Source: an uncultured Clostridia bacterium (GTDB lineage: Bacteria > Bacillota > Clostridia > Oscillospirales > Acutalibacteraceae). From it: 64,000 nt of DNA. A model generated the notes under the pieces. That model was given only the letters and a program-made list of their open reading frames with translations, did no database searches and was not told where the DNA came from. The DNA lies in assembly GCA_947168445.1 (NCBI GenBank), contig CAMVLW010000003.1, positions 1 to 64,000 on the forward strand. The letters are read 5' to 3'. Below, piece by piece: positions 30,285-52,040 of the stretch. The position numbers and the translations under genes are program-made. Numbering within the stretch: position 1 is the first letter of the stretch; the number at the start of each line of letters is the position of its first letter.

Positions 30285-30318
30285 ACTCAAGTGTACCTCC
30301 TTTTGATATTTTCTGCGA

Positions 30319-35416: not shown

Positions 35417-36923
35417 TTCCTTCACCGCCTTCCGTTGCTTTTTTCTTTTTCTTTTGATAGATAACCAATCCTGCCGCGCCGGCGATACCGGCAGCACCGA
35501 GAATTGTCACCGCGTAAAAGCCGCCTTCGCTGAAAACGGAGCCGCTTGTTACCATCTTGGCTTCAACCGTTCTTGACTCCCGTGTGGTAAGGTTGCCCTT
35601 GTCAGCGATAAAATACTGCTTTTGATATTGACTGACCCACTCGGAAACCATAACGCTGCTGCTGCCTGTTGAGCCGAGGTGAACCTCTGAGCCCTTATAC
35701 AGTCCGGCGTTGATAATGCGGGCTTTTCCGAGCGTGTAGTTATTCAGCGCCAGGTTGTTAACAGCCGCTTCCTTGGCGGAATTCTGCTTAATCAGCGTGA
35801 GTCCCTTGAGCGTGAGGTTGTAGCGGCCGTCCACATAAACGCCGCCGCCTTCATCGCCTGCGCTGTTGCCGACAATCTCACAGCTTGAAAGCGCAATGTT
35901 GTCGTCATTGATATACAGCGCGCCGCCGTCTTTCTTGGCGGAATTTCCGCGGAACTTGCAGTTGTGGAACACAATCGCCTGATTATATTCGGGGTTGTCG
36001 TTGATATAAACTGCGCCGCCGTCCTGGTTTGCCTCATTGCCCGCGAAAATACAGTTTTGAGCTGTTAATACCGTCGCCACATATTTTGAGGTATCATGAG
36101 CGGTGTAAATCGCGGCACCCTGTTCGCGGCAATGGTTGCCGGAAAAAATCACTCTGTCCAGATAGATATTGCCGCGCAGCGAGTAGATGGCGGCGCCGTC
36201 GTCCTCGCTGTAGCAATCGTCAATCTTGGCGTTTGAAATATTGATGGTGCCCTTGTTCATATAAATGCCGCCGCCGCAGCAGTTATCAGCACTGTCAACG
36301 GTTTGGCAGCCGTAAATTCTGCCGCCGGTCATGGTGAATTTTGTGTTAGAGGAGTTGCCGTCAAGATAAACGCCGCCGCCGTCCTCGTCGGTGATGCACT
36401 TATAAATGGTGCCGCCCTCCATACGGAATTCGCCGTCCTCGTCAATGTGAACGCCGCCGCCTGTGTTGGTGCTTGCACCGCCGGTAATCACGCCGCCCCT
36501 TACGCCGTCATAGCCCGCAGCCTTGGGATTGCTGTCGCGCACGGTCAAGACGGCGTTCTTTTCTACCTTGAAAACCTCGCCGTTGCGTTGCTTTTCCTCT
36601 AAGCTGCGCTTAATGTAATGACCGTTGAGGTCGATGGTGATACGCATGCCGGCGCCCACGGTATACAGCACGTTTTCTTCCCAGTTGGAGCCGAGGGTGA
36701 TAACGGTTTCTTTGGCGTTGTTCGCGTTGTTAAATGCAGCGAGCCAAGCTTCTTTGGGGGTGTTGTAATGATTTGACGAAATCACCTTGCCATCTTGAAT
36801 CACCTCGACATTCGCTCCCGAGGTGACGGTTTTTGCGTCAACCGCGCCTGCCGTCGGAACCGCAATTGCCGCAAGGAACAAACTTACCGCAGGAATGACC
36901 GGGATAAACTTTTTAAACTTCAT
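35409..36923 (-). CDS. Membrane-anchored beta-helix surface protein (short)
   Basis: This 504-residue protein has a signal peptide (residues 1-29, ending near TAGAVDA). A right-handed parallel beta-helix covers about residues 108-408, shown by recurring GGGVYLDG, GGGIYMNKG, GAAIYS, GGAVYIND and GGALYIND turns and N-x-A/S ladders. One membrane helix near 468-491 is followed by a KKKKK tail. There is no LPXTG sorting motif, so anchoring is by the membrane helix. Beta-helix repeats of this type occur in Pmp-like adhesins and polysaccharide-acting proteins; no catalytic residues stand out. The ATG at 36923 is preceded by AAAGGAG 9 bases upstream, which lies in the end of the preceding gene. The 66 bases before it in frame belong to that gene. 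It sits between a larger beta-helix protein and the 1678-residue protein in one operon, suggesting a common surface structure. Confidence 0.85.
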   Translation of the reverse strand: MKFKKFIPVIPAVSLFLAAIAVPTAGAVDAKTVTSGANVEVIQDGKVISSNHYNTPKEAWLAAFNNANNAKETVITLGSNWEENVLYTVGAGMRITIDLNGHYIKRSLEEKQRNGEVFKVEKNAVLTVRDSNPKAAGYDGVRGGVITGGASTNTGGGVHIDEDGEFRMEGGTIYKCITDEDGGGVYLDGNSSNTKFTMTGGRIYGCQTVDSADNCCGGGIYMNKGTINISNAKIDDCYSEDDGAAIYSLRGNIYLDRVIFSGNHCREQGAAIYTAHDTSKYVATVLTAQNCIFAGNEANQDGGAVYINDNPEYNQAIVFHNCKFRGNSAKKDGGALYINDDNIALSSCEIVGNSAGDEGGGVYVDGRYNLTLKGLTLIKQNSAKEAAVNNLALNNYTLGKARIINAGLYKGSEVHLGSTGSSSVMVSEWVSQYQKQYFIADKGNLTTRESRTVEAKMVTSGSVFSEGGFYAVTILGAAGIAGAAGLVIYQKKKKKATEGGEGND

Positions 36924-36930
36924 TAGCTGT

Positions 36931-39900
36931 CTACTCCTTTCCCACCGGTTTCTTTTTCTTTCTGGATGAATAGATAACAGAGGTGACAATGGCTGCCAGC
37001 AAAACGCCGCTGCCGATATAAAGCATAATGGTACCGTCGGAGAAGATGGAGGAGGATGTTGACGCAGCCTTTACAGACTTCCAAATGGCATACAGGATAA
37101 CTTTTCCGCCCTTTTTCGAAGTAAGGTTGGTAACGGTCGCGTCCCTTTCATACATCGTGCCACTGCCGTCCGGCTGGGTGTTCCAGCCGACAAAGGTATA
37201 GTTGGTGCGTCTTAAAGTATGCGCCGGAAGCTGCTTCGGTTCGTCATAAAGGAAGGATGTGTTCACCGCCGAGCCCGAAACATCACTTTTTACTCTGCCG
37301 CTTGATGTAACCTTAGTACCACCGTTCTTATTAAATTCTACCGAATAATAGTTGGGCGCCAGAATTGCGTTCAGGGTAACGGAATCGTTAATAAAGGTAA
37401 AATCAAAATTCTGGATATAGTCGCCTGTCGCTTCGTTTGTTTCGGACAAATCATCATACTTGATGCCGGTATCGTCGTCGAATGACTCAATATAATATCC
37501 CTCGGGAACCTTTAGATTAGCAGCATGTACGGTGTCGCGCGAGCTGCCTGACGCATGAAATACTTCCTTGCCGTTCACGACAACACTCAGATGCAGCAGA
37601 AAGACGAATTTGACGTTAATCGGCTTGGTGATGGTCGGATAGACGTTGCTGCCGGACTTGAAGGTCATGTTGTAGGTGCTGTGGTGAATACTGTTATATG
37701 TGCTGCTCACTCTCCACTTGTAGCCCGAATTGTCAACCGGCTCAATGGTGTCCTCTCCGGGGAAGGAGACATTTTCCATGGTAATGTCGGAGCTTTTCAC
37801 CGTCCATTTGACGCGGTACTGGTCGACTGCCGAAACGGTAACGACGCCGCTGGTGTCAATTTGTTTTGGCGTGTCAATTTCAAAATCTTCGGGATAGGGA
37901 TATTTGTCGCCGCCGATGTTAATTCTTGTGTTCTTTCTTTCGTCGCCGTACACCTTATGGACAACGTGGTGGGAAGCGACGTTGACGTTGTTGATTTTAA
38001 CGGTAACGTCGGCTTCGAAGTCACGCGGAATCAGATCGGTGCCAAAGGATGTGATTACGTCAACCGAGCTTGGGAAGTAGTTGGGATCACAGTCATAAGT
38101 ATAGTTAATAGACTTGCCGTCTTCGTCAATAGATGTATGGAAATCATACGAGGTATGCAGCAGCGTTTCGTTGCCTATTCCCTTGTTCTCCTTGCCGTAG
38201 ATATGGAAATAGGCATAGTCCCAAGCGTCCGCGTCGTCGGTCACCTTGAGATAAATTTCAACATGATAGTTGTTGCGGTCACCTGACTTCATGGTGGTAA
38301 TCAGCTTAACCTCTTTGTTTTCTTCGCGGTCAACTTTGCTTTGATTGTTATCGCAGTAGAAAACATCCGCGGGAGCGCTTTCATTATATTGACCGTAGCC
38401 CGAAGTGGCGTTATAGTTGTCGATGCCGGGAGGCGTGATGCCGATTGATGAACCGATGTAGAATTGTCCCTGAATCTGGATAGGCTTGAATTCTCTGAAC
38501 CAGAGATTGGAGGAATTGCCGTTTGTTGTGCTGTCGGTGATTCTTGTTCTGCCGCCCAAGAGAATGAGGGAGCCGGCATGGAAATGGATTCCCGCGCCGC
38601 CGCTGAAGGCGCGGCAGTTGCTAATATCTCCGGCTTGTATGGTCAGCGTTCCGCTTGTATCCATATAAATGCCGCCGCCGCAGTTGTCCGCCGTGCAGCC
38701 GTTGATGGTGCAGCGGGTCAGGCTGAGCGTTCCGTGCGAATTCAAAGCGCCGCCGTTGGTTTTGCACGTGTTATTCGTCATGGTCACGTCGCTCAACGTG
38801 GCGGTTGTGCCGGAGTTTGCCCACAATGCGCCGCCCGCCTCGGAAGAAGTATTATTATTCATCGTTGCCTTCTTCACGGTCAGGGCGCCCTTGCGAAGAT
38901 GAATGCCCGCGCCGGTTTTTCCGTCATTGTTGTTGACGTTGGTGTTATCCAATACCGTGTTGCTGCCGTCAATATACAAGCCGCCGCCCCAGCCGGAGGC
39001 CTCGTTCGCGGCAATCGTACAATCGGTCAGCGTCATATTCTTGTGGTTGGTGACGCCGCCGCCGTTAACCGCATCTTTGTTTTGGGTGATATCCGTGTTG
39101 GTGATGGTTGCGTCGCCTGATGACCAGATTCCGCCGCCGCCGCCTTTGTTGTCGAGAGTGGCGTTGCTCTTGATTTTACAGCCGGAAATTGTCAGCTTGC
39201 CTAAGTTGGCGATACCGCCGCCGTCCTTGCCTTTGTTATTGGCGATTTCACAATTATTCAGCGTAGCGGATGAATTTGCGTCTATATACAGCGCGCCGCC
39301 GTTTTCGTAGCCTATGTTATTCTTGAATCTGCAATTTGTCGCCTCGATGGTGCTGTTTTCCAGATAAACACCGCCGCCGAGTTTTCCCGTGTTATCGGTG
39401 ATATTCATGCCCTTCAGAATCAGATTGCTGTTATTGAGAACACGAAAAGCGCTGCCGAGGCCAACGCTGTCGGCGCCTGTCACCGTGGAGGTGCCTTCGT
39501 TGCCGGACCCGATAAGCGTCAGGGTGGAACCGTTGTCAATCTTGATAGCGGTGGGACCCCCTCTGAGCAGCTTTATGGAATAGCCGTTGGTTTTAATCAC
39601 ATGGGCTTTTCCGTCGATGACATACAGCGTGTCTTTCAGTTCAATATTGTCCTTCAAGCTGATTTCTGTATTTCTCAGCGCTGTTCTCAGTGTTTCTTCT
39701 GTTTTGACTTCGGTTTCGGTATCTTCAAACGACTCGAAGTAGAATAAAGGGAGAATCGGAAATGTATTTGGTTCCCTTTCTACTCTTTCCAGTGTGACCG
39801 CACGGTCAAAGACGAATGCGGTGTCGGTTTCCTGATAGAACTCACCGTCAAGATAGGCGATCATCTTTCTATAAACTTTTTTATCATAGAAATTAAGATT

Positions 39901-40092
39901 TTTTATTGACGTTCCTTCTTCAAAATAGTCGCCTATTTCAAGGTTTAAGACCTTTGCTGATGCACCCTTATAGTATTCTCTTGCAGAAACGGAGGAAATG
40001 CCGATTGAAGCCATGCTCATGCACAAAAGGAGTACAAGCAAAACTGACAAAAGGCGCTTTGCTAATGATTTTCTTTTTTTCACCTTGCTCAC
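36931..40092 (-). CDS. Membrane-anchored beta-helix surface protein with InlB-type repeat (long)
   Basis: The product has about 1053 residues: signal peptide at 1-37 (lysine-rich start, LLSVLLVLLLC core, SVSA end), then a parallel beta-helix over about 150-550 with recurring GGGVYLEN, GGALYIDA, GGGIANLG, GGGLYIDG, GGALWANSG and GGGIYMD turns. Ig-like beta regions follow. A Listeria-Bacteroides (InlB B-type) repeat lies near 916-1003 (VEFNKNGGT ... YTFVGWNTQPDGSG ... ILYAIWK). A membrane helix near 1014-1042 and an RKKKK tail end the protein. The InlB repeat and beta-helix point to an adhesive or structural surface role; no enzyme motif was seen. The start is uncertain: GTG at 40092 (AAAGGAG 12 bases upstream) or GTG at 40083 (AAAGGA about 10 bases upstream). 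The longer ATG frame at 40161 would lie inside the upstream gene and begins with its charged tail sequence. It follows the upstream gene by about 25 bases. Confidence 0.85.
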   Translation of the reverse strand: MSKVKKRKSLAKRLLSVLLVLLLCMSMASIGISSVSAREYYKGASAKVLNLEIGDYFEEGTSIKNLNFYDKKVYRKMIAYLDGEFYQETDTAFVFDRAVTLERVEREPNTFPILPLFYFESFEDTETEVKTEETLRTALRNTEISLKDNIELKDTLYVIDGKAHVIKTNGYSIKLLRGGPTAIKIDNGSTLTLIGSGNEGTSTVTGADSVGLGSAFRVLNNSNLILKGMNITDNTGKLGGGVYLENSTIEATNCRFKNNIGYENGGALYIDANSSATLNNCEIANNKGKDGGGIANLGKLTISGCKIKSNATLDNKGGGGGIWSSGDATITNTDITQNKDAVNGGGVTNHKNMTLTDCTIAANEASGWGGGLYIDGSNTVLDNTNVNNNDGKTGAGIHLRKGALTVKKATMNNNTSSEAGGALWANSGTTATLSDVTMTNNTCKTNGGALNSHGTLSLTRCTINGCTADNCGGGIYMDTSGTLTIQAGDISNCRAFSGGAGIHFHAGSLILLGGRTRITDSTTNGNSSNLWFREFKPIQIQGQFYIGSSIGITPPGIDNYNATSGYGQYNESAPADVFYCDNNQSKVDREENKEVKLITTMKSGDRNNYHVEIYLKVTDDADAWDYAYFHIYGKENKGIGNETLLHTSYDFHTSIDEDGKSINYTYDCDPNYFPSSVDVITSFGTDLIPRDFEADVTVKINNVNVASHHVVHKVYGDERKNTRINIGGDKYPYPEDFEIDTPKQIDTSGVVTVSAVDQYRVKWTVKSSDITMENVSFPGEDTIEPVDNSGYKWRVSSTYNSIHHSTYNMTFKSGSNVYPTITKPINVKFVFLLHLSVVVNGKEVFHASGSSRDTVHAANLKVPEGYYIESFDDDTGIKYDDLSETNEATGDYIQNFDFTFINDSVTLNAILAPNYYSVEFNKNGGTKVTSSGRVKSDVSGSAVNTSFLYDEPKQLPAHTLRRTNYTFVGWNTQPDGSGTMYERDATVTNLTSKKGGKVILYAIWKSVKAASTSSSIFSDGTIMLYIGSGVLLAAIVTSVIYSSRKKKKPVGKE

Positions 40093-40117: not shown

Positions 40118-42502
40118 TTACGAAATTCCGGCGTTTTCTTTTCTTTTTCTGGCTGATACAATTAACAGCGCCATTAAACCGCCGCCGACAAGTAAGCCGA
40201 TAATCGCTCCGAGCGCAATGGAACCGCCGGAGAACAGGGAGCCTGCCGCTGTTTGCTCCTTGACAGCAGCGACGTCGCGCTTAAAGTAAACATAGGTGCC
40301 GCCATAGGGGTCGTTGTAGCTGTATTTGTTTTTTTCGTCGGTAAGGTTTTGCACCGCCGTTTCACCGAACATGTGAATACCGGTGTCATAACCCTCAGGA
40401 GCGCCGCTGCCCAGCTTCATCTTCAGGGAATCCGCGAGAATCGGCGTACCGTCCTCATATTTCACGCTGTAGAGAGCAAGCCACTGCTGTCCGACATCGC
40501 CGTTGAGGTCGGCGCGGTCTTTGAGAATTTCGTGGTTTTTCTTTTCAACCGCACTTCCGCCTCCGTCGGTGCGGTTGCAGGTGACGACCTTGTAATAGGC
40601 GGTCTGGTTTTTAATCATCACCGTTTGCTTTTTGCCGTTGATGGTTTGGTCTTCGGTGATGTCAGCCTGCTCAACAATGTATTTGGGAATCGGCGCAAAA
40701 TCGACCTTGTAATACGCCATCAGTTCCGAGATAGTGGTGTAGATGGAAATACCTGCCAGCACCACCATTGCAATGGTGAAGCCCATAGCGAGATACCTGC
40801 ATACCGTTGACTTGGAAGCGAACTGTTTTAACGCATCTTTATATTTGTCGCTGGTTTCGATATTCTTTACGGTTCTTTCCAGTCCCTTCAATCTCACACT
40901 TGCCGCAATGCCTCTGGGATTTTGACTCCGGAAGTCCGCTAAATTCTGTTGTGCCTGTTTCAGCTCCGCAAATATGGAGGGTTCCATTTTGGAAGCAATC
41001 ACCGTACCAACTGCCGCGACGCCGGCTGCCGCCGTGCACATCCACATTGCAATGCCTAAGCCGCTGAGTTCAAAGGTGGATTTTACTTCCTGAGCGGCAG
41101 CCTTCGCGCGCAGCGCGTCATTTGTCAGCGCAACGCCGCCCTTTTCATAAATTTCACGGTTAACATCCTGATAGATGGAAGCGGGCTGAATACCGTCTAA
41201 CTTTGCGTCCTTAAAGCCGCTTTCGTCCGAAATTGCCATGACAATCATATCCTTGATGGAAATAAAGTCCAAGCCCGCCAGCTGACCGCCGGAAAGCGCG
41301 TCTACCATCGGATACAGAGCGCGGATATTTTTATCGCCGTTGAATTCCGCCACGTTCTTTTGGAAGAAATCCAACAGGTTTGTTTTGCCATAGTTGGTTG
41401 AGGCAAGGTGGTCGTGAGTAACAATATCCTCCGCCGCCATACCGCCCTGAACAACGGTTCCCTGATCCTTATACATCTTGACGGCAGCGTCCTGAACTTC
41501 CTTATCGGTTGAGTTGTCGGTCAGGGTGACGTTTGTTTCAGCGGAAACCGGCGTTTCGGCAACTTCATCCAACGAGTCAAGCGCGTTGTCATAGTTGAGC
41601 AGTATTTCGTTAAAGGCGCTCCACTTGTCGCGGATTTTCTTGGCGTCGTCGTTATATTTTTTGTCAAGCTCTTTGTTGATGTCAGTGGGAGTGAGAGTGG
41701 GATTTTCTTTTTTGATTTCTTCGGACAGCTTTTCAAGGCTTGTGTTCTGAAAGCGGTCAAGCCATGTGTCGTCTGAGGAGTCAGAAGCCTTTGTCAGCTC
41801 GGTTTCCATCAGCTGCACCGCCTGTCCGTTGCCCTGCATTAACAGGGTGACGATGTCGCAGTGGTTTTTCTTTTCGGTGTCGGACAGCTTGTTGTAGGCT
41901 TCGTCGCCCATCTCATACTTTGTCGGGTTGACGAGCAAATCACCCAGCGGTCTGCCACCGGTGTCGTCGTCGGTCAGCTTGTTAAGCAGGGTTTTGAAGT
42001 AGCTTGCGCGCTTGTAGTTAGCGGAATCCTGCGGCTTTTTCAGGTTTGCGCGGTATTCGTTGAGCGTTGCTACAAAACGGCTGACAAACGGTTTGATTTG
42101 AGAATCCATCTGAGTCTGCATCAGCTTGTCATAGTCCTCATAGCTGTAGCCGCCGTTCATGTTCATGACCGCAAGATCGGTCACCGCGTCGCTTGCGTCG
42201 TCGGTGGTTTTGTAGCCGAGATAGACGATTTTCTGGTTGGGACCCTGTTTGAGAGGACTCTTGGCGCCCGCGTCCTTGTTAAGATCGGCATATTCGCCTT
42301 GGTCGTCGGCAAGAATGGTGTAGCCGTCTGCCAAAAGCTCCTTTGAGGCTTCGTCAGAGGTTTTGCCCATGCCAACCTTGACCTCGCTGATATACTTCTT
42401 TCCGTTGCTCTCCGCGGCAGAAGCAATTACCTGTGCCGGAGCGAGCACCAGCATTGACACACAAAGCAATGCTGATGTAATCACTGTCACAAATTTTTTC
42501 AT
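40118..42502 (-). CDS. Exported three-helix membrane protein, cluster paralog C
   Basis: This 794-residue protein belongs to a family I cannot name. Residues 1-30 are a signal peptide. Residues 36-125 form the module shared by the cluster (KYISEVKVG ... ADLNKDAG ... VYLGYKTT ... AVTDLAVMNMNGGYS). Residues about 126-475 are helical and well conserved among paralogs (IRALYPMVDALS, NREIYEKGGVAL). Membrane helices lie near 481-505, 565-595 and 754-784. Between the first two is a charged, coiled-coil-like segment that differs among paralogs; topology predicts it to be cytoplasmic. A conserved external domain lies between helices two and three (FAPIPKYIVEQADITE ... WLALYSVKYEDGTPILAD). The protein ends in a basic tail (SARKRKENA). 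The ATG at 42502 follows GGAGG by 8 bases. An in-frame upstream extension is promoter sequence. It is the first gene of the promoter-proximal group leading to the beta-helix genes. Confidence 0.85.
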   Translation of the reverse strand: MKKFVTVITSALLCVSMLVLAPAQVIASAAESNGKKYISEVKVGMGKTSDEASKELLADGYTILADDQGEYADLNKDAGAKSPLKQGPNQKIVYLGYKTTDDASDAVTDLAVMNMNGGYSYEDYDKLMQTQMDSQIKPFVSRFVATLNEYRANLKKPQDSANYKRASYFKTLLNKLTDDDTGGRPLGDLLVNPTKYEMGDEAYNKLSDTEKKNHCDIVTLLMQGNGQAVQLMETELTKASDSSDDTWLDRFQNTSLEKLSEEIKKENPTLTPTDINKELDKKYNDDAKKIRDKWSAFNEILLNYDNALDSLDEVAETPVSAETNVTLTDNSTDKEVQDAAVKMYKDQGTVVQGGMAAEDIVTHDHLASTNYGKTNLLDFFQKNVAEFNGDKNIRALYPMVDALSGGQLAGLDFISIKDMIVMAISDESGFKDAKLDGIQPASIYQDVNREIYEKGGVALTNDALRAKAAAQEVKSTFELSGLGIAMWMCTAAAGVAAVGTVIASKMEPSIFAELKQAQQNLADFRSQNPRGIAASVRLKGLERTVKNIETSDKYKDALKQFASKSTVCRYLAMGFTIAMVVLAGISIYTTISELMAYYKVDFAPIPKYIVEQADITEDQTINGKKQTVMIKNQTAYYKVVTCNRTDGGGSAVEKKNHEILKDRADLNGDVGQQWLALYSVKYEDGTPILADSLKMKLGSGAPEGYDTGIHMFGETAVQNLTDEKNKYSYNDPYGGTYVYFKRDVAAVKEQTAAGSLFSGGSIALGAIIGLLVGGGLMALLIVSARKRKENAGIS
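40479..40665. repeat. 187-bp identical tract, copy in paralog C
   Basis: Every base matches 43037-43223 in paralog B on direct reading. The tract encodes part of the external domain between membrane helices two and three. Paralog A differs at many positions here. Confidence 0.85.
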
Positions 42503-42550: not shown

Positions 42551-42585
42551 ATCATAACATACGTTGGGGGACAATTAGGGGACAA
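42551..42585 (-). promoter_or_regulatory. Promoter with 11-bp-period direct repeat upstream of paralog C
   Basis: On the minus strand two TTGTCCCC octamers (42578-42585 and 42567-42574) repeat with an exact 11-base period. Eleven bases lie between the nearer repeat and a TATGAT -10 (42551-42556). No normal -35 exists at 17 bases, so the repeats probably bind an activator. The same arrangement, with the same spacings, lies at 47641-47675. Confidence 0.65.
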
Positions 42586-42608
42586 ATCGGCGTGATTTTT
42601 TCCGATTT

Positions 42609-42652
42609 AAAAAAATTTTTCGGCGGGCATACGTTTTGCCGTATGTCCGCCG
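42609..42652 (-). terminator. Strong terminator after paralog B
   Basis: Arms 42621-42633 and 42640-42652 pair over 13 bases with one G/A mismatch (a possible G-U pair in RNA). On the minus strand AAAAATTTTTTT follows at once. It ends the A-B transcript 27 bases after the stop of paralog B and separates it from the promoter of paralog C. Confidence 0.9.
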
Positions 42653-42678
42653 GAGGTTATTTGTGTTTTTCAGTTGTT

Positions 42679-45111
42679 TTAGGCTGCGTTTGTTTTCTTC
42701 TTTCTGCCGGCAATCCTTGTGATGATAAAGGTAATCAGGCAGCCCGCAGCCAAGCCGATGACCGCTCCGAGCACAAGAGAGCCGCCGGAGAACACAGAGC
42801 CGGCAGTTTGAGTGTCCGCGGAAACAACGTCACGCTTAAAGAAAACGTAGGTGCCCTCATTGGGGTCGTTGTAGCAGATGTCACCCTTGGTGGTGGTGAG
42901 GTTTTGCGCCGCTGTTTCACCGAACATGTGAATTCCGGTATCATAACCCTCAGGCGCGGGACCGTCGCCCAGCTTCACCTTTAAGGAATCCGCGAGAATC
43001 GGCGTGCCGTTATTGTATTTCACGCTGTAGAGCGCCAGCCACTGCTGTCCGACATCGCCGTTGAGGTCGGCGCGGTCTTTGAGAATTTCGTGGTTTTTCT
43101 TTTCAACCGCACTTCCGCCTCCGTCGGTGCGGTTGCAGGTGACGACCTTGTAATAGGCGGTCTGGTTTTTAATCATCACCGTTTGCTTTTTGCCGTTGAT
43201 GGTTTGGTCTTCGGTGATGTCAGTCTTTTCAACGATGTATTTGGGAATCGGCGCGAAATCGACCTTGTAGTATTCCATCAGTTCCGTGATGGTGGTGTAG
43301 ATGGAATAGCCTGCCAATATGACTCCTGCGATAGCAAAGCCGACTGAGAGATATTTGCAGATGTTTGATTTTAAAGCAAACGCTCTTGTCGCCTTTTTAT
43401 ACGCTTCTTCAGAAGGTCCTAATCGTTCAATTCTTTCCAGCGCAATAGCCTGTTTGTCTTTGTATATGTCTCTGATAATTCCAAAACCAAACTCACTTTC
43501 GGGTTTTGCAAGTTCTCGATTTATATAATTGAGCGCATTTCTGGCCTCGTTTAATTTTGCAACGTCTGCTTGCAGCCGGAGCATGCTTTCACTCGGTTTA
43601 AGACTCTTAAACGCAGCTAATGACGCTATCGCCGCGGCTGTGGAAGCCGCTGTGCAGCTCCAAAGAACGATTCCTGTCGTGCTCAGCGCAAAGGCAGGTT
43701 TCGGATTCTGTGAGCTCGCCTGTGCACGTATTGCATCGCTTGTCAGCGCAACGCCGCCCTTTTCATAAATTTCGCGGTTAACGTCTTGAAAGATTGAAAC
43801 CGGCTCCACATTGCTTATTTTCGCATCATTAAAGCTGTTTTTGTCAGCGACAGCCATCATGATCATATCCTTGACGGAGAGAAAATCCAGTCCGGCAATC
43901 TGACCGCTGGAAAGCGCGTCAACAATCGGATACAAATTGCGGATATTTTTTTCGCTGGTAAATTCCGACACGTCCTTTTGGAAGAATTCCAAGAGCGTGC
44001 CCTTGCCGTATTTGGACGCTTCAAGAAAATCGTGCGCAATGATGTCCTCAGCCGCCATGCTGCCCTTGACCACGTCCGCCTGGGATACATACGCGTCGGC
44101 AACTGCTTCTTTGATTTCTTGTTCGGACGAATCATCGTTCACCTTGATTTCTTTTACTTCCGTCTCAACAGCCTCGTCCAACTCATCGAGAGCATTATCG
44201 TAATTGAGCAGAATCTCATTGAAGGCGCTCCACTTGTCGCGGATTTTCTTGGCGGCGTCGTTATACTTTTTGTCAAGCTCCTTGTTGATGTCAGTGGGAG
44301 TGAGAGTGGGATTTTTCTCTTTAATCTCTTGTGTAAGAGCGTTTAAATCGGTTTTCAAAAATCTGTCAAGCCATGTGTCGTCTGAGGAGTCCGACGCCTT
44401 TGTCAGCTCGGTTTCCATCAGTTGTATCGACTCTCCCTTGCCCTGCATCAACAGAGTGAGAATGTCGCAGTGGTTCTTCTTCTCGGTGTCGGACAGCTTA
44501 TTGTAAGCTTTATCGCCCATTTCGTATTTTGTTTGGTTCACCAGCAAATCGCCCAGCGGTCTGCCGCCGGTGTCGTCGTCAGTCAGCTTGTTAAGCAGGC
44601 TTTTGTAATAATTCGCGCGCTTGAAGTTGACGGAATCCTGCGGCTTTTGCAGATTTGCGCGGTATTCGTTGAGCGTTGCGATAAAGCGGTCAACAAACGG
44701 CTTAATCTGGGAATTCATCTGGGTATTCATCAGATCCTCATATTCCTGATAGCTGAATCCGCCTTTCATGTTCATCACTGCAAGGTCGGTCACCGCGTCG
44801 CCTGCATCGCCGGTGGTTTTGTAGCCGAGATAGACAATCTTCTGGTTGGGACCTTGTTTGAGAGGACTCTTGGCGCCCGCGCCCTCGTTAAGATTGGCAT
44901 ATTCGCCTTGGTCGTTGGCAAGAATCGTGTAGCCCTCTGCCAAAAGCTCCTTTGAAGCTTCGTCTGAGGTTACACCCATGCCAACCTTCACCTCGCTGAT
45001 GTATTTCTTTGCGTTGCTCTCCGCCGCGGAAGCAATCATCTGCGCGGGACCAACTGCCAGCATTGACACACAGAGCATTGCCGAGGTGATGCCGGTTAAA
45101 AGCTTTTTCAT
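42679..45111 (-). CDS. Exported three-helix membrane protein, cluster paralog B
   Basis: This 810-residue member of the same family has the signal peptide (MKKLLTGITSAMLC start), the N-terminal KYISEVKVG/VYLGYKTT module, the long helical external region, and membrane helices near 472-500, 584-615 and 770-797. A divergent charged segment lies between the first two helices (LQADVAKLNEARNAL and onward). The external domain before the last helix is conserved and the tail is basic (RIAGRKKKTNAA). The ATG at 45111 is preceded by GGAG with 8 bases spacing; a TTG two codons upstream is less likely. The gene starts 24 bases after paralog A with no terminator between, so they form one operon. Its DNA is a patchwork: one tract is identical to A, the adjoining one identical to C. 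Function is unknown; export and membrane anchoring are clear from sequence. Confidence 0.85.
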   Translation of the reverse strand: MKKLLTGITSAMLCVSMLAVGPAQMIASAAESNAKKYISEVKVGMGVTSDEASKELLAEGYTILANDQGEYANLNEGAGAKSPLKQGPNQKIVYLGYKTTGDAGDAVTDLAVMNMKGGFSYQEYEDLMNTQMNSQIKPFVDRFIATLNEYRANLQKPQDSVNFKRANYYKSLLNKLTDDDTGGRPLGDLLVNQTKYEMGDKAYNKLSDTEKKNHCDILTLLMQGKGESIQLMETELTKASDSSDDTWLDRFLKTDLNALTQEIKEKNPTLTPTDINKELDKKYNDAAKKIRDKWSAFNEILLNYDNALDELDEAVETEVKEIKVNDDSSEQEIKEAVADAYVSQADVVKGSMAAEDIIAHDFLEASKYGKGTLLEFFQKDVSEFTSEKNIRNLYPIVDALSSGQIAGLDFLSVKDMIMMAVADKNSFNDAKISNVEPVSIFQDVNREIYEKGGVALTSDAIRAQASSQNPKPAFALSTTGIVLWSCTAASTAAAIASLAAFKSLKPSESMLRLQADVAKLNEARNALNYINRELAKPESEFGFGIIRDIYKDKQAIALERIERLGPSEEAYKKATRAFALKSNICKYLSVGFAIAGVILAGYSIYTTITELMEYYKVDFAPIPKYIVEKTDITEDQTINGKKQTVMIKNQTAYYKVVTCNRTDGGGSAVEKKNHEILKDRADLNGDVGQQWLALYSVKYNNGTPILADSLKVKLGDGPAPEGYDTGIHMFGETAAQNLTTTKGDICYNDPNEGTYVFFKRDVVSADTQTAGSVFSGGSLVLGAVIGLAAGCLITFIITRIAGRKKKTNAA
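42727..43011. repeat. 285-bp identical tract, copy in paralog B
   Basis: Reads identically to 45184-45468 in paralog A (offset 2457). It encodes the end of the external domain and the last membrane helix. Confidence 0.9.
43037..43223. repeat. 187-bp identical tract, copy in paralog B
   Basis: Identical to 40479-40665 in paralog C (offset 2558). It begins only 25 bases after the tract that matches paralog A instead. Confidence 0.85.
44828..45027. repeat. 200-bp identical tract, copy in paralog B
   Basis: Identical to 47324-47523 in paralog A (offset 2496). It encodes most of the N-terminal module just after the signal peptide. Confidence 0.85.
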
Positions 45112-45135
45112 AACCAATTCTCCTTTTTTCCTGAC

Positions 45136-47607
45136 TTATTCGGCTTTTTCCTTCTTCTTTTTGCCGACAATCCTTGTGATGACAAAGGTAATCAGGCAGC
45201 CCGCAGCCAAGCCGATGACCGCTCCGAGCACAAGAGAGCCGCCGGAGAACACAGAGCCGGCAGTTTGAGTGTCCGCGGAAACAACGTCACGCTTAAAGAA
45301 AACGTAGGTGCCCTCATTGGGGTCGTTGTAGCAGATGTCACCCTTGGTGGTGGTGAGGTTTTGCGCCGCTGTTTCACCGAACATGTGAATTCCGGTATCA
45401 TAACCCTCAGGCGCGGGACCGTCGCCCAGCTTCACCTTTAAGGAATCCGCGAGAATCGGCGTGCCGTTTTTGTATTTCACGCTGTAGAGCGCCAGCCACT
45501 GCTTGCCGACGTCGCCGTTGAGGTCGGCGCAGTCTTTCAGAATTTCATGGTTCTTCTTTTCAACATTGGTGCCGCCGCCGTCGGTGCGGTTGCAGGTGAC
45601 GACCTTGTAGTAAGCGGTCTGATTTTGAATCATCACCGTTTGCTTTTTGCCGTTGATGGTTTGGTCTTCGGTGATGTCAGCCTGCTCAACAATGTATTTG
45701 GGAATCGGAGAGAAATCGACCTTGTAGTACTCCATCATTTCCGTGATGGTAGTGTAGATGGAATAACCGGCAAGAAATGCCATGGCAATTGTAAAGCCGG
45801 CGGCAATATATCTGGAAATGTTAGATTTGGACACAACCTCTTTCATTGCGTTCTGATACTCTTTTGTGTTTGAATAGTTTTCGATATTCTTTATAGATGA
45901 TTTTATGCCCTGTTCTCTCATGTCGAGCATGTGCTGCGTCACGGAGTTACCCGGATCATTTTGAAGCATCTGCTCAAACCTGAGATAATCATTCTGTGCA
46001 TTTGTCAAGCTGTTTTGCAACTGTTGCATCCTCTGCTCAACGATTTTGTTGACAGTTCTTGTAACACTCGTAGTCGGCTTGATAGAGGAACCGATAATCA
46101 AGGAACCGGCTGCCGCCATTCCGGCGAAAGCAGTACAGCCCCAGAGCACACAGCCCAGTTTGCTCAGTTCAAAGGTTGTTTCCGTCTGCTGAGCGGCAGC
46201 CTTTGCGCGCAGCGCTTCGTTTGTCAGCGCCACGCCGCCTTTTTCGTAGATTTCACGGTTGACGTCCTGGAAAATGGAAGCCGACTCCATCTTGCTTGAA
46301 TCAACGTCATCAAAACCGCCGTCAATTGAAATGGCAATCATCATCAAATCCTTGATGGAAAGGAAGTCAAGACCTGCCAGCTGTCCGTCGGAGAGCGCAT
46401 CTACCATCGGATACAGATTACGGATGTTTTTCTCACTGCTGAATTCCGCAGCGTTCTTTTGGAAGAATTCCAGAAGTGTGCCTTTGCCGTATTTATTCAC
46501 TTCAAGGAAATCGTGAGCGGCAATATCCTCTGCCGATCTGCCTGCCTTGATCATCGCTCCCTGGGAATTGTACGCTTCTGCAGCCACTTCGGTAACTTCC
46601 TCTTTGGTTGGGTTATCGCTAAGCTTGACCTCTTTTTTGTCGGCTTCTTCTTCCATTTCGTCAAGCAGTTCGTCCGCTCTGTCATTCGCGTCATCATAAT
46701 TGAGCAGAACCTCATTGAAGGCGCTCCACTTGTCGCGGATTTTCTTGGCGGCGTCGTTATACTTTTTGTCAAGCTCCTTGTTAATCTCTGTGGGTGTAAG
46801 AGTGGGATTTTCATCCTTAATCTCTTTCGAAAGAGAATTCAAGTCGGTTTGCACAAAGCGGTCAAGCCATGTGGTGTCGGAGGAGTCAGCCGCCTTGGTC
46901 AGCTCGGTTTCCATCAGCTGCACCGCCTGTCCGTTGCCCTGCATTAAAAGGGTAAGAATGTCACAGTGGTTTTTCTTTTCTGTGTCGGACAGCTTGTTGT
47001 AGGCTTCGTCGCCCATTTCGTACTTTGTCTGATTGACCAGCAAATCACCCAAGGGTCTGTTGCCGGTGTCGTCGTCGGTCAGCTTGTTGAGCAGGGTTTT
47101 GTAGTAATTCGCACGCTTGTAGTTAGCGGAATCCTGCGGCTTTTTAAGATTTTCGCGGTATTCGTTGAGCGTTGCGATAAAACGGTCTACAAACGGCTTG
47201 ATTCTGGTGTTCATGTGGTTGTTCATCAGCGTTTCGTAGTCCTCAAAGCTGTAGCCGCCCCTCATGTTCATGACCGCAAGGTCGGTGACAGCGTCTTTCG
47301 CGTTGTCGGTGGTTTTGTAGCCCAGATAGACAATCTTCTGGTTGGGACCTTGTTTGAGAGGACTCTTGGCGCCCGCGCCCTCGTTAAGATTGGCATATTC
47401 GCCTTGGTCGTTGGCAAGAATCGTGTAGCCCTCTGCCAAAAGCTCCTTTGAAGCTTCGTCTGAGGTTACACCCATGCCAACCTTCACCTCGCTGATGTAT
47501 TTCTTTGCGTTGCTCTCCGCCGCAGAAGCGATTACCTGCGTGGGAGCAATAAACAGCATTGCCATACAGAGCACAGCTGAAGTTATGGCTGTCAGTATTT
47601 TTTTCAT
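45136..47607 (-). CDS. Exported three-helix membrane protein, cluster paralog A
   Basis: This 823-residue protein is the first gene of the minus-strand cluster. It has a signal peptide (MKKILTAITSAVLCMAM), the KYISEVKVG ... LNEGAG ... VYLGYKTT ... AVTDLAVMNM module at about 36-125, and a helical external region with NIRNLYPMVDALS and NREIYEKGGVALTNEALR landmarks. Membrane helices lie near 482-506, 597-626 and 784-811; between the first two is a long charged coiled-coil-like segment (KIVEQRMQQLQNSLTNAQND and onward). The conserved external domain and a KKKKEKAE tail follow. The ATG at 47607 follows AGGAGG by 7 bases. A promoter with 11-bp direct repeats lies just upstream. I know no named family; homology to paralogs B and C and to the 1678-residue protein is evident. 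A secreted, membrane-tethered multi-subunit structure is inferred. Confidence 0.85.
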   Translation of the reverse strand: MKKILTAITSAVLCMAMLFIAPTQVIASAAESNAKKYISEVKVGMGVTSDEASKELLAEGYTILANDQGEYANLNEGAGAKSPLKQGPNQKIVYLGYKTTDNAKDAVTDLAVMNMRGGYSFEDYETLMNNHMNTRIKPFVDRFIATLNEYRENLKKPQDSANYKRANYYKTLLNKLTDDDTGNRPLGDLLVNQTKYEMGDEAYNKLSDTEKKNHCDILTLLMQGNGQAVQLMETELTKAADSSDTTWLDRFVQTDLNSLSKEIKDENPTLTPTEINKELDKKYNDAAKKIRDKWSAFNEVLLNYDDANDRADELLDEMEEEADKKEVKLSDNPTKEEVTEVAAEAYNSQGAMIKAGRSAEDIAAHDFLEVNKYGKGTLLEFFQKNAAEFSSEKNIRNLYPMVDALSDGQLAGLDFLSIKDLMMIAISIDGGFDDVDSSKMESASIFQDVNREIYEKGGVALTNEALRAKAAAQQTETTFELSKLGCVLWGCTAFAGMAAAGSLIIGSSIKPTTSVTRTVNKIVEQRMQQLQNSLTNAQNDYLRFEQMLQNDPGNSVTQHMLDMREQGIKSSIKNIENYSNTKEYQNAMKEVVSKSNISRYIAAGFTIAMAFLAGYSIYTTITEMMEYYKVDFSPIPKYIVEQADITEDQTINGKKQTVMIQNQTAYYKVVTCNRTDGGGTNVEKKNHEILKDCADLNGDVGKQWLALYSVKYKNGTPILADSLKVKLGDGPAPEGYDTGIHMFGETAAQNLTTTKGDICYNDPNEGTYVFFKRDVVSADTQTAGSVFSGGSLVLGAVIGLAAGCLITFVITRIVGKKKKEKAE
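45184..45468. repeat. 285-bp identical tract, copy in paralog A
   Basis: Identical to 42727-43011 in paralog B; divergence resumes at 45469. Confidence 0.9.
47324..47523. repeat. 200-bp identical tract, copy in paralog A
   Basis: Identical to 44828-45027 in paralog B; the first difference is at 47524. Confidence 0.85.
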
Positions 47608-47640
47608 TATCGTACCTCCTAAACAAATGTTTACATGCTT

Positions 47641-47675
47641 ATCATACCACACGTTGGGGGACAATTGGGGGACAA
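47641..47675 (-). promoter_or_regulatory. Promoter with 11-bp-period direct repeat upstream of paralog A
   Basis: TTGTCCCC octamers on the minus strand at 47668-47675 and 47657-47664 repeat with an 11-base period. Eleven bases separate the nearer one from a TATGAT -10 at 47641-47646. Sequence and spacing match the element before paralog C, while the leaders further downstream differ, which argues for a functional site. Confidence 0.7.
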
Positions 47676-47804: not shown

Positions 47805-49457
47805 ATGGAGAACAAAAAATTCACGAAAAGCCTTGCATTCAAAACAATGCTGCGGCTGTTTCTCACTGTAATCGTTTTATCGCTTGTCGCCAGCGCAGTT
47901 ATCGGCGTAATTACGTATGTCAATCTGTCGGCTGAGCTGCGGGACTATGCCTATGACGCGGCGCGAAAGGGAACGGCGCTGACCTCGGCAGACGCCGACG
48001 AGGACATTCACGCCAATATTGAAAGATATACGAAAACAGGGCATACCGACGAGAATTACAAAAATATCTTCCTGAATCTTCTGCTGATTAATGATGATTA
48101 TGAATTGCAGCGCTGCGACATTTTTATTCCCTACGAGAATCATATCACCTACCTGATGTCCACCACCGACAAGACAGCGGGCGAATCTCTGAATAAGGAG
48201 GCTCCCTATTACGGCAGCGAAAAGGACTATGTTTTAAAGGCGATTGAGGCGTCAACCAACACGGAATTAGACCCCGAAAAATCAAAAAAGGAAAATATTT
48301 ACACCGACAACGTCAAGGACGGCGTGAAGGTCGTGACCTATTATACGCCGGTGCTTGACAAAAACGGAAATGTTGCCGCTGTGTTTGCGGCAAGCTATTC
48401 CACCGACAAGGTCGTAGCCGTCATCTTCCGCACGATTGCCGGACTGATTGGCGTATCGCTTGCCGTTATGCTTATCTCGATGATTGTCTTTTTCTTCTCT
48501 ATCCGCAAGCATGTCATTAAGCCTGTTACCAACCTGACCAAGTCTGTACGCAAGGCAAAGGAGAGCGTTGAAAACCATCAGGCTGTGACGACGAATATCC
48601 GCACCGGCGATGAAATTGAGGAGCTTGCCGTTGCCTTTGAGGACATGAGCCGTGATTTGATTGGCTACATTGACGAAAACACCAGAATCACCGCCGAAAA
48701 GCAGCGCATTGATACCGAGTTGAGCTTGGCGACCGGAATTCAGGCAGGCATGCTGCCCGACAAATTCCCGGCGTTCCCGGACAGAAAGGATTTCGACATT
48801 TACGCTTCAATGAAGCCGGCTAAGGAAGTCGGCGGCGACTTCTACGACTTCTTTATGATTGACGAGGACAGACTGGGAATCGTCATGGCGGACGTATCCG
48901 GCAAGGGTGTGCCGGCAGCGCTGTTTATGATGCACTCCAAAATTCTGCTGAAAAGCTACACCCTGATGAAGCAAACGCCAAAGGCGGCGCTGGAGGAAGT
49001 GAACCGTCAAATTTGCGAGAACAATCCCGAAGAGATGTTCGTCACCGTTTGGCTGGGCGTGCTGGATTTAAAAACAGGCATGTTTACCGCTGTTAACGCG
49101 GGTCACGAAAGACCCGCCGTGAAGCAGGAAGGCGAGCACTTTGAGCTCTTTAAGGACAAGCACGGCGTTGTGGTCGGCTATATGGACGGCGTCCGCTTTA
49201 AAGAATATGAATTGCAGCTGACCAAGGGCGCAAAGCTGTTCCTCTATACCGACGGTGTTGCCGAAGCCACCGACGCGCACGAGGAGCTGTTCGGCACCGA
49301 CCGCATGATTGAAGCGCTGCGCTCCGCCGAGGACAAGTCGCCCAAGGAAATTCTTGAGACGGTTGACGCGGCGGTTGATGCATTTGTCGGCACCGCGCCG
49401 CAGTTTGACGACTTAACCATGCTGTGTATCGAGTACAAGGGAGCAAACGAAGAATAA
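47805..49457 (+). CDS. Membrane sensor with HAMP and SpoIIE/PP2C-type serine phosphatase domain
   Basis: This 550-residue protein is RsbU/RsbP-like in its output. Membrane helices near 17-40 and 198-222 flank an external Cache-like sensor of about 150 residues. A HAMP linker covers about 223-285. The SpoIIE/PP2C catalytic domain runs from about 305 to 545, with the usual motifs: ATGIQAGMLPD, EVGGDFYDFF (first metal-binding acidic pair), MADVSGKGVPAALFM, NAGHERPAV and the closing DDLTML. Family members dephosphorylate a phospho-STAS protein so that it can capture an anti-sigma factor; the STAS gene lies directly downstream. The ligand of the sensor is unknown. The start at 47805 has only a weak AAAGG ribosome site. 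An imperfect hairpin lies between it and the STAS gene. No serine kinase/anti-sigma gene lies in the window. Confidence 0.88.
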   Translation: MENKKFTKSLAFKTMLRLFLTVIVLSLVASAVIGVITYVNLSAELRDYAYDAARKGTALTSADADEDIHANIERYTKTGHTDENYKNIFLNLLLINDDYELQRCDIFIPYENHITYLMSTTDKTAGESLNKEAPYYGSEKDYVLKAIEASTNTELDPEKSKKENIYTDNVKDGVKVVTYYTPVLDKNGNVAAVFAASYSTDKVVAVIFRTIAGLIGVSLAVMLISMIVFFFSIRKHVIKPVTNLTKSVRKAKESVENHQAVTTNIRTGDEIEELAVAFEDMSRDLIGYIDENTRITAEKQRIDTELSLATGIQAGMLPDKFPAFPDRKDFDIYASMKPAKEVGGDFYDFFMIDEDRLGIVMADVSGKGVPAALFMMHSKILLKSYTLMKQTPKAALEEVNRQICENNPEEMFVTVWLGVLDLKTGMFTAVNAGHERPAVKQEGEHFELFKDKHGVVVGYMDGVRFKEYELQLTKGAKLFLYTDGVAEATDAHEELFGTDRMIEALRSAEDKSPKEILETVDAAVDAFVGTAPQFDDLTMLCIEYKGANEE

Positions 49458-49494
49458 AGGCAACACCGCACACCGGAATGATGCGGTATTGCCT
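49458..49494 (+). promoter_or_regulatory. Intercistronic hairpin between phosphatase and STAS genes
   Basis: Arms 49458-49470 and 49482-49494 pair with one mismatch (12 of 13). No T-run follows, so this is more likely an RNA-processing or attenuation element than a full terminator. It may set the ratio of phosphatase to STAS protein. Confidence 0.5.
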
Positions 49495-49533
49495 ATCATT
49501 TCAGCGAAACATAAAAGAATAAGAGGAATCTAG

Positions 49534-49830
49534 ATGGAAATCACAATAAGCACAAACGAAACCGAATTGACAATCAGCCCTAACGGCCGCATAGACACCG
49601 CGACAGCCGGAGAGCTGCAATCGGTGGTAAATGACAATATCAGCGGCGTGACCAAGCTGACCTTTGATTTTAAAAACCTGAGTTACCTTTCTTCCTCCGG
49701 TTTGAGAGTGCTGCTGAGCACCCAAAAAATCATGAACAAGCAGGGAACAATGCGGTTTATCAACGTCAACAGCGACGTCATGGATATTTTTGACATGACC
49801 GGTTTGTCGGACGTCTTTCAAATAGTGTAA
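49534..49830 (+). CDS. STAS-domain anti-sigma factor antagonist
   Basis: This 98-residue single-domain protein is of the RsbV/SpoIIAA class. It shows the fold pattern TISPNGRIDTATAGELQ, then FDFKNLSYLSSSGLRVLL; the serine in the SSSGLRVLL loop is the usual phosphorylation site of the family. When unphosphorylated, such proteins bind an anti-sigma kinase and release sigma factor. GAGG lies 7 bases before the ATG. It follows the SpoIIE-type phosphatase by 76 bases in the same direction, so the phosphatase is its probable activator. The cognate anti-sigma kinase and sigma factor are not in this window and must be elsewhere if the circuit is classical. Confidence 0.9.
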   Translation: MEITISTNETELTISPNGRIDTATAGELQSVVNDNISGVTKLTFDFKNLSYLSSSGLRVLLSTQKIMNKQGTMRFINVNSDVMDIFDMTGLSDVFQIV

Positions 49831-49925: not shown

Positions 49926-50726
49926 TTAATAGTAGTTTTCAAGATGATAGATATAAACCTCTGCCCAGCTATACTGATTGAGGAATTCTCCCCGGTACAA
50001 ATCACGGGCTTCCGGCTTTCGTTCCAGATAATCGTAATAATCGCACTGAATCAAATTGGTGTTGACGGAATAGGCGTTGCGGCTGTGCTCAAGAACCTCC
50101 TCCATCTGATATTTGGAGAGGTCTTTTTTGAGGGACTGAACGGCTTTTTTCAGGTGCTCAAAGCTTTTTTGCTCGCTGCTCTCTTCAAAAATATTGGCGC
50201 AGATTTCTCCTCTGGTGGCGGAGGTGCCTCTCAGACAAACGAGATAAGCAAACAGCTCCTTGCCCTTTTGCCGCGAAAACTTGACCGGCTTTTCTCCGAA
50301 GAACACCTCAAAATTTCCGAAGCATTTGACATGCAGCGCTTTTTTCGCGGTCTGCCCTGCCCCGATTGGCTTGCGCAGGTTGTTAAGGGCTTCCCGCAGC
50401 TCGTTGTCGTCAACCGGCTTGAGCAGATAGGCGCTGACATAAAGCCGCAGCGCGTCCAGCGCGTATTCCCTGTATGCCGTCACCATGATGATATTAATAT
50501 CGGGATGATAGCTTTTGATTGTCTGCGCAAGCTCCAGACCGGTTTTTCCGGGCATATTGATGTCCAAAAACGCAATGTCTATCTTATTGTTATGTATTTG
50601 CTCAATAGCTGTGTCGTAGTTCTGCGCAAAAAAGAACACGTTTTCGTCCGACGGCGCCACTCTTTCGATGGCAAATTTCAAATCGTAGCGCATACTCATT
50701 TCGTCGTCTGCTATCAGTATATTCAT
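49926..50726 (-). CDS. Response regulator with SARP/OmpR-like winged-helix output
   Basis: This 266-residue protein has a receiver domain (1-120) with acidic pocket D7-D8, phosphoacceptor D55 in FLDINMPG, a conserved threonine in MVTAYRE and lysine in LLKPVDD. Residues about 130-266 show a winged-helix of the SARP type (VKCFGNFEVFF, FSRQKGKELFAYLVCLRG, EHLKKAVQSLKKDL), with the start of a BTAD-like helical part (CDYYDYLER ... YRGEFLNQYSWAE). It is not a LytTR output, although its kinase is LytS-like. SARP and OmpR-type outputs typically bind direct repeats with 11-bp period near the -35. The gene starts 18 bases after the kinase stop, with GGAGGGG ahead of its ATG, so the two form an operon. 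Regulation of the nearby TTGTCCCC-repeat promoters is inferred, not shown. Confidence 0.88.
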   Translation of the reverse strand: MNILIADDEMSMRYDLKFAIERVAPSDENVFFFAQNYDTAIEQIHNNKIDIAFLDINMPGKTGLELAQTIKSYHPDINIIMVTAYREYALDALRLYVSAYLLKPVDDNELREALNNLRKPIGAGQTAKKALHVKCFGNFEVFFGEKPVKFSRQKGKELFAYLVCLRGTSATRGEICANIFEESSEQKSFEHLKKAVQSLKKDLSKYQMEEVLEHSRNAYSVNTNLIQCDYYDYLERKPEARDLYRGEFLNQYSWAEVYIYHLENYY

Positions 50727-50744
50727 GTCTAACCACCCCTCCGG

Positions 50745-52040
50745 TTATTGGCTTGCTTCGGGTATCACAATAACCGCCCGCGTGCCTTTTCCCGGCGTGC
50801 TTTCAATGATAAGCTCGCCCTTGCACATAATTTCCACTCTGTTTCTGGTGTTCGCAATACCGACAGAGTTCTTTCCCTTGGTTTGCAGTTCGTTAACATC
50901 AAAGCCCGCGCCGTTGTCCTCGATTGACACAATCCGCTTTTCTCCGTCGCTTTTGGTGGTGATTCGAATGACGCCGTTTTCACTTTGACCGCTCTTGAAG
51001 CCGTGGTGAACAGCGTTTTCCGCCAAGGTCTGGATAGAAAAGGGCGGAACGTCAAAATCGGTCGCGTTGATGTTGTACTCGCACTTGATGCCGTCTCCGA
51101 AGCGCTTCGACTGGATAAGCAGATAGTTTTTGACAATGTCCAGCTCTGTTTCAACCGAAATGCAGTCCTCCTCTGTCAGATAATCGGTAATGCCCCTGAG
51201 ATAATTGGAGAACTCCGTCACCGTTTCCGCCGCTTCGTTCGGCGCTGTCAGGCATTGAAAGCGGATGAGCGCCAGCGTGTTGAAGATAAAGTGCGGCTTC
51301 ATCTGTTGGTTGACGAGCTTTAGCTTTTCTTCGCTCAGCTTTTTCTCCTTTTCTATCAAGGACTGCACATAGCTCGTTTCATAGGAAATGAACAGGATAA
51401 TGACCGAGATAACAATGGCAAAGGTGACAAAGGGCGTTTCCGGGTAAAACAGCTTGATGATGATACCGATAAGCGGCAGGGTCAAAAAGGAAACAACCGC
51501 CACTCTTTCGATAATCAGCATGTATTTGCTGTATTGCATCGCAACTGCCAGCGTGGAGACAATGCCCGTGAAGCCAATCAAACTCGGCAGCCAGAAAAGA
51601 TACGGCATACGCACATAACGGCTTGCGTCGTCGATGCGGAAAATGAACGGAACGATTTCATTGATAATCAGCAGCACCGCACCGAATATAAAGATACCCC
51701 ATTCTACCAATTCCCAATAAAGCTTAAAGCCGCCGGAGCGTTTGTAGATGATTTGGGAAACATACTGCGCCGCAAGCGGAATACTCAGAAAGCTGAGAAA
51801 ATAGACGCCAAAGGTCGCCCATCTTTCAACGGCGTTTCCCACCTTTGAAGCGTCGCCGCGAAAAAGAATAGAGATACCGTCGCATAACATCAGCGCCGCC
51901 GAACAAAGCATGGCAAGCATCAGCTTGCGCGCGCCGGATTTGTCGAAATATCTTGTTAAAAGAATGGTCAGCGCAGCAATCAAGCTGAAAAAAGCGCCCC
52001 ACATCTCAATGGAAAAATACACGCTCTGAATCGTAGTCAT
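50745..52040 (-). CDS. LytS-type sensor histidine kinase with 7TM-like N-terminal domain
   Basis: This 431-residue kinase starts with about seven membrane helices (residues 10-225) and no large external loop. Then come a short coiled-coil, an H-box of the His_kinase (LytS/YehU) family with H250 in QMKPHFIFNTL, an N-box (LAENAVHHGFK) and ATP-lid glycines (IEDNGAGFD, TPGKGTRAVI). Members phosphorylate a response regulator in trans; the partner gene follows by 18 bases. The 7TM region resembles histidine-kinase 7TM sensor modules seen in Clostridia; the signal is unknown. The ATG at 52040 is preceded by AAGGAGG with 9 bases spacing. A TATAAT -10 lies 58 bases upstream. No truncation or missing key residue was seen. 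Confidence 0.88.
   Translation of the reverse strand: MTTIQSVYFSIEMWGAFFSLIAALTILLTRYFDKSGARKLMLAMLCSAALMLCDGISILFRGDASKVGNAVERWATFGVYFLSFLSIPLAAQYVSQIIYKRSGGFKLYWELVEWGIFIFGAVLLIINEIVPFIFRIDDASRYVRMPYLFWLPSLIGFTGIVSTLAVAMQYSKYMLIIERVAVVSFLTLPLIGIIIKLFYPETPFVTFAIVISVIILFISYETSYVQSLIEKEKKLSEEKLKLVNQQMKPHFIFNTLALIRFQCLTAPNEAAETVTEFSNYLRGITDYLTEEDCISVETELDIVKNYLLIQSKRFGDGIKCEYNINATDFDVPPFSIQTLAENAVHHGFKSGQSENGVIRITTKSDGEKRIVSIEDNGAGFDVNELQTKGKNSVGIANTRNRVEIMCKGELIIESTPGKGTRAVIVIPEASQ

Follow-up and report, generated by a model that had tools for sequence, protein, structure and literature searches.

A tandem 11-bp repeat as the predicted operator of a two-component system beside a surface-protein gene cluster in Clostridia

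Two promoters of the window, by which we mean the whole 64,000-nucleotide stretch of DNA analysed, carry the same octamer twice with a period of 11 bp, and the question raised by this locus is whether the repeat is an operator and, if so, which protein reads it. In our view it very probably serves as operator for the two-component system encoded at 49926-52040, whose response regulator (RR), once phosphorylated, would bind as a pair where the -35 is missing and recruit RNA polymerase. The features on which the discussion turns are as follows.

42567-42585, minus strand: box 1, proposed tandem operator, TTGTCCCC-TAA-TTGTCCCC
42551-42559, minus strand: extended -10 of the box 1 promoter, TG-T-TATGAT, 10 bp past the second octamer
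47657-47675, minus strand: box 2, proposed tandem operator, TTGTCCCC-CAA-TTGTCCCC
47641-47649, minus strand: extended -10 of the box 2 promoter, TG-G-TATGAT
40118-42502, minus strand: paralog 1, first gene past box 1; 794 aa, secreted, with a C-terminal membrane anchor
45136-47607, minus strand: paralog 3, first gene past box 2; 823 aa
42679-45117, minus strand: paralog 2, about 19 bp behind paralog 3 and in its transcription unit, without a box of its own
42617-42656, minus strand: hairpin of 17 bp followed by a T-rich tail, which probably terminates the box 2 unit ahead of the box 1 unit
36931-40020, minus strand: beta-helix surface protein, downstream of paralog 1, lacking its own box and probably transcribed together with paralog 1 from box 1
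30380-36923, minus strand: two more genes for surface proteins, at 35409-36923 and 30380-35416, with which the box 1 unit may end
47805-49830, plus strand: genes of a SpoIIE-type phosphatase and of a STAS protein, running divergently from box 2
49926-50726, minus strand: RR, proposed binder of the boxes; 266 aa, receiver and SARP/OmpR-type winged helix, recognition helix EHLKKAVQSLKKDL
50745-52040, minus strand: histidine kinase, partner of the RR; PF06580 and HATPase_c

Both exact repeats announced by the original prediction are present, on the minus strand, and neither promoter has a -35 hexamer 17 bp upstream of its -10, as had also been stated. The gap between repeat and TATGAT had been given as 11 bases and is actually 10 at both promoters (TTGTCCCC-CAACGTATGT-TATGAT and TTGTCCCC-CAACGTGTGG-TATGAT); both also have an extended -10 (TGn), a feature that had gone unmentioned. 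A genome-wide motif scan, which had been suggested as a check, was done on the whole draft genome (1.95 Mb, 85% complete): box 1 and box 2 are the only matches to TTGTCCCC-N3-TTGTCCCC with two mismatches or fewer, and the remaining ones all need three mismatches and occur at the rate of the reversed-pattern control. Since dinucleotide shuffles of the window gave 0.47 matches expected at up to three mismatches, and two matches were reached in 8 of 100 shuffles, the count of matches in the window is by itself modest evidence. Nor do the two copies prove much, because the promoters head paralogous genes (71-73% protein identity) and are not independent. What is decisive for the reality of the box is its exactness, together with its conservation across other species.

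Within the genus, the promoters of the paralog genes of other species share the box despite diverged surroundings: the octamers and the -10 are nearly invariant, with a median ungapped identity of the flanks of 0.38; each octamer position carries about 1.73 bits of information, positions upstream 0.5 and positions downstream 0.46, and the extended -10 has TGnTA at all sites. Matches were found in 16 of the 161 genus genomes, the reversed control pattern giving two matches. Among 29 distinct contexts that were read, two stop at a contig edge (one of them, in G173, is a one-mismatch match that may be due to chance), and each of the 27 sites with a readable downstream gene lies upstream of a member of one protein family, the secreted paralog of about 820 aa; no unrelated target gene was found behind any of these 27. 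Triple TTGTCCCC repeats, again with the 11-bp period, occur at 235-264 of L010 (G005:C29) and, in a genome of the Lachnospiraceae, at about 6547-6576 of L128 (G188:C94); they recall the operator of the SARP-LAL regulator PimR, which is described as having three repeats (PMC5930380).

Outside the genus, a scan of the contigs of species-representative genomes with the longer pattern TTGTCCCC-N3-TTGTCCCC-N5-TRTGnTA gave 27 stretches. Their record titles place all of them in Clostridia; Lachnospiraceae are among them, as is a cultured species, Eubacterium xylanophilum ATCC 35991. The gene order in the latter is kinase, two small membrane proteins, box, paralog, regulator and second paralog; its RR is at 63% to that of the window, and no other RR of the family was matched in its genome. 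Two exact sites are present in this species, one at the paralog and one at a gene of the beta-helix type. The box is also found in Lachnospiraceae immediately upstream of homologues of the beta-helix protein, which it does not head in the window, so that operon layouts differ although the target set is conserved. One of the few sites not heading a surface-protein gene is at position 146 of L116 (G185:C71), where a perfect TTGTCCCC box with an extended -10 lies upstream of an acetyltransferase-like gene. The two small membrane proteins have homologues at 28975-30290 of the window (minus strand), one a PrsW-like intramembrane protease, the other a small membrane protein as well; the pair is kept with the kinase and the regulator in Lachnospiraceae clusters (E. 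xylanophilum L106, G185:C3, G187:C45, G188:C55), which suggests a role in signalling or in surface-protein processing.

The RR itself has the two parts of an OmpR/PhoB-type regulator, a receiver with its phosphorylation site and a winged helix of the Trans_reg_C type. The receiver matches Response_reg (E 5e-22), and the residues of the phosphorylation site (D55, D7/D8, T83, K103) are invariant in ten orthologues; Trans_reg_C of Pfam is matched by 11 of 14 members of the RR family (best 1e-6), the window RR alone being without such a match. Whole-chain Foldseek matches belong to the OmpR/PhoB family (BaeR, VanR, CosR, PhoP), and the structures first found with a profile of the DNA-binding domain are EmbR (E 1e-4) and then AfsR (E 1e-3). 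The receiver and the winged helix of the structure model are usable, the last 20 residues are not, and a second structural aligner was uninformative on the winged helix because it mostly matched receiver domains. The regulator had been called SARP-like in the original prediction. For the DNA-binding domain, with EmbR and AfsR nearest, this is right; it does not extend to the BTA domain, of about 150 residues in AfsR (PMC10936776), since Pfam gave no BTAD match and the chain stops a few tens of residues past the winged helix, and we do not file the protein as a SARP for this reason. Above the threshold used, the window's genome has two RRs of the family, of which that at 49926-50726 alone carries the KK helix. 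The RR gene is interrupted in L144 (G137:C24; an in-frame stop) and in L145 (G067:C176; split frames), either by decay or by assembly error.

The arrangement of the two promoters recurs throughout the regulator family. We scanned 75 regions around family RRs (968 kb) for any octamer repeated at a given period and followed after 10 bp by an extended -10: there were 47 promoters at period 11, 0 or 1 at each of the periods 9, 10, 12, 13 and 14, and none at period 11 in control regions from the same genomes (298 kb). The gap of 10 bp to the -10 is fixed in every octamer class, and the sites are mostly 0.3-3 kb away from the RR gene, with one located 30 bp upstream of the RR gene itself (G018) and another 57 bp upstream of the RR's kinase (G035). 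For twelve held-out RR regions from other genera of the order, the geometry was predicted beforehand; period 11 gave 5 sites and other periods 0-1, half of the twelve regions being without a site by the rules of the scan. Three regions with octamers of the TTGCAAAG class, L195, L196 and L202 (G021:C58, G023:C75, G076:C33), have three to four promoters each within about 0.4-0.7 kb, and some promoters of this class are apparently serial, upstream of one secreted-protein gene. No 11-bp repeat promoter was found in eight regions (L271-L278) near proteins of about 670-790 aa from other genera or families, which have the same DNA-binding domain and a common helix, RYRKVALRLKNTL, and for this reason we do not claim the geometry rule for them.

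A mechanism is suggested by comparison with SARP-type operators. These are described as 11-bp direct repeats that overlap the -35 and leave about 8 bp between the 3' repeat and the -10; AfsR is seen in its complex as two protomers side by side, each on the first 8 bp of an 11-bp repeat, the last 3 bp being free (PMC10936776). The boxes have the period of 11, a gap to the hexamer of 10 bp from the octamer or 7 bp from the full 11-mer, and no -35. From the likeness of the RR domain and the matching geometry of the AfsR complex, we propose an AfsR-like activation. The kinase would phosphorylate the RR, and phosphorylation, judging from the response-regulator architecture, would promote binding. 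Two RR molecules would then sit head to tail on the same face of the helix, each on one TTGTCCCC; if the hexamer is assumed at -12 to -7, the octamers would lie at about -41 to -23, in place of the -35, and the two 11-mers would span -41 to -20 with their centre at -30.5. The bound RR would recruit sigma-A RNA polymerase to an extended -10 promoter that may be weak on its own. Another possibility is that the same RR acts as a repressor, blocking RNA polymerase at an intrinsically active promoter: the box is located within the promoter, and an extended -10 is able to work in the absence of a -35. We regard this as unlikely, because the gap kept in every octamer class and the absence of a -35 are what is expected of an activator replacing the -35, and because AfsR, with the same layout, activates.

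That this RR, rather than some other protein, reads the box is suggested by the way in which the octamer follows the recognition helix. The helix EHLKKAVQSLKKDL pairs with TTGTCCCC, LLQTYIYAMIKSL with TTGCAAAG, QFDVILRSMRQTL with TTGTTGGA, YLRQLTKDL and YVRQLFFDL with TTGTTACG or TTGTCACG, and YLQTLISAMMKSL with TTGTTGTA-like octamers, most octamers beginning to differ at position 5. Placed on the RR tree, the box classes need 17 changes (minimum 13, shuffled mean 28.5), a figure as low being reached in 0 of 200 shuffles. When the best-matching repeat is used for RRs with several sites, octamer distance correlates with helix distance (r 0.49) and with receiver-domain distance (0.33); the partial r is 0.42 for the helix given the receiver, as high in 0 of 2000 permutations, and -0.20 for the receiver given the helix. 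Among held-out regulators, those with class-C (DV) helices had xxTTGGACA repeats in 4 out of 4 cases, with a fifth seen later in G185:C3, and one with a window-like scaffold but RQ instead of KK had the octamer TTGTCACG, as in other RQ regulators. This correlation across related proteins appears to tie K193/K194 to octamer positions 5-8. K194 aligns with AfsR T88 in the profile alignment of the DNA-binding domains, and T88 contacts the base at repeat position 5 (PMC10936776).

Box and regulator are also inherited together. The box occurs in 16 of the 161 genus genomes, a close RR orthologue (67% or more to the window RR) in 16, and both in 14, which gives a Fisher p of 2.8e-16 on related, non-independent species; co-occurrence cannot alone single out the RR, because box, RR and targets sit in one gene cluster in the genus. 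As for the exceptions, the box of G081, which lacks a close RR, is in a promoter region identical to that of G174 (L077, G081:C131; L090, G174:C105), possibly because of a mis-binned contig or a recent transfer, and no box was found in G006 and G137, both with the RR, the contigs ending near the expected place. A close RR orthologue was sought twice, and not found, in three Lachnospiraceae MAGs with TTGTCCCC boxes, G185, G186 and G187; the last has, in a syntenic cluster, a sister-clade regulator that might read the same box. The boxes of these three MAGs would fit a different reader, some other DNA-binding protein or alternative sigma factor that was inherited along with the cluster, for example one under the control of the SpoIIE/STAS pair, the genes of which are conserved neighbours in the genus and recur beside the box in several genomes. 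We judge this somewhat less likely still than repression, since box, RR and kinase are all present at the E. xylanophilum locus with no SpoIIE/STAS genes in the 8 kb read there, the octamers change together with the helix of the RR, and the -10 is of the ordinary sigma-A type. The remaining explanation, that the promoters were simply copied along with the paralogs that they head and that the repeat is functionless, is hardly credible in spite of the similarity of these genes, being already contradicted by the near invariance of octamers and -10 amid diverged flanks and by the recurrence of the box in another family.

With the RR as the preferred reader, the idea of a local regulon of the neighbouring kinase and regulator, put forward in the original prediction, is supported by the co-occurrence in the 161 genomes, the conservation with the same RR in a second family, the lack of an unrelated target among the genus sites and the clade-by-clade covariation of octamer and helix. 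As also foreseen, the boxes head both parts of the paralog cluster. Box 2 would turn on paralogs 3 and 2, a unit probably ended by the hairpin at 42617-42656; box 1 would turn on paralog 1 and probably also the surface-protein genes behind it, down to 30380, as no strong minus-strand terminator was seen before 30353. Pfam and NCBIfam scans of the paralogs found nothing except a sub-threshold HMG_box match, and their structure model (mean pLDDT 55.7) was too poor for a search of relatives. Further along the minus strand, 1726-26862 is a single open reading frame of 8378 codons, which adjoins a cohesin/Big_2/dockerin protein at 140-1711.

A predicted DNA target is hereby assigned to a class of RRs common in rumen and gut Clostridia, for which we found no described operator, and no paper on the regulators, in the open-access literature, and an orphan family of large surface proteins is tied to a sensor kinase. 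The series of regulator-operator pairs is a natural one, in which few helix residues appear to set specificity. We see about even chances for a wider generalization: a large, apparently undescribed Clostridia family of BTA-less SARP-like RRs would use one frame, octamer-N3-octamer-N10-extended -10, and two or three helix residues (K193/K194 in the window, R87/T88 of AfsR in the alignment) would set octamer positions 5-8, with KK giving TTGTCCCC, RQ giving TTGTCACG or TTGTTACG, DV giving TTGTTGGA, and QT giving TTGTTGTA or, as LLQTYIYA, TTGCAAAG. If this is true, operators and regulons could be predicted from protein sequence.

Among known systems, three invite comparison. The PF06580 histidine box is more usual in kinases that work with LytTR regulators, and the RR receiver also matches LytR and BtsR models, so that the pair recalls LytS/LytR-type systems; in contrast to these, Pfam scans find no LytTR domain in the RR, and the operator is an 11-bp direct repeat. 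The combination of receiver and winged helix, with direct repeats replacing the -35, is that of OmpR/PhoB-family RRs (PhoB, VanR, KdpE, M. tuberculosis PhoP), but the window RR has no Pfam match to Trans_reg_C and a DNA-binding domain nearer to SARPs. The closest parallel in geometry is AfsR and the SARP activators: the afs box of afsS consists of two 11-bp direct repeats over the -35 and close to the -10, with its centre at -29.5 (PMC10936776), versus about -30.5 here, and the DNA-binding domains are the nearest by profile. In the AfsR complex, sigma region 4 docks on the protein (PMC10936776). Unlike AfsR and the SARPs, the regulator described here belongs to Clostridia hosts, would act at a promoter with a strong extended -10, ends in a short tail instead of a BTA domain, and has a receiver preceding its DNA-binding domain and a histidine kinase encoded next to it.
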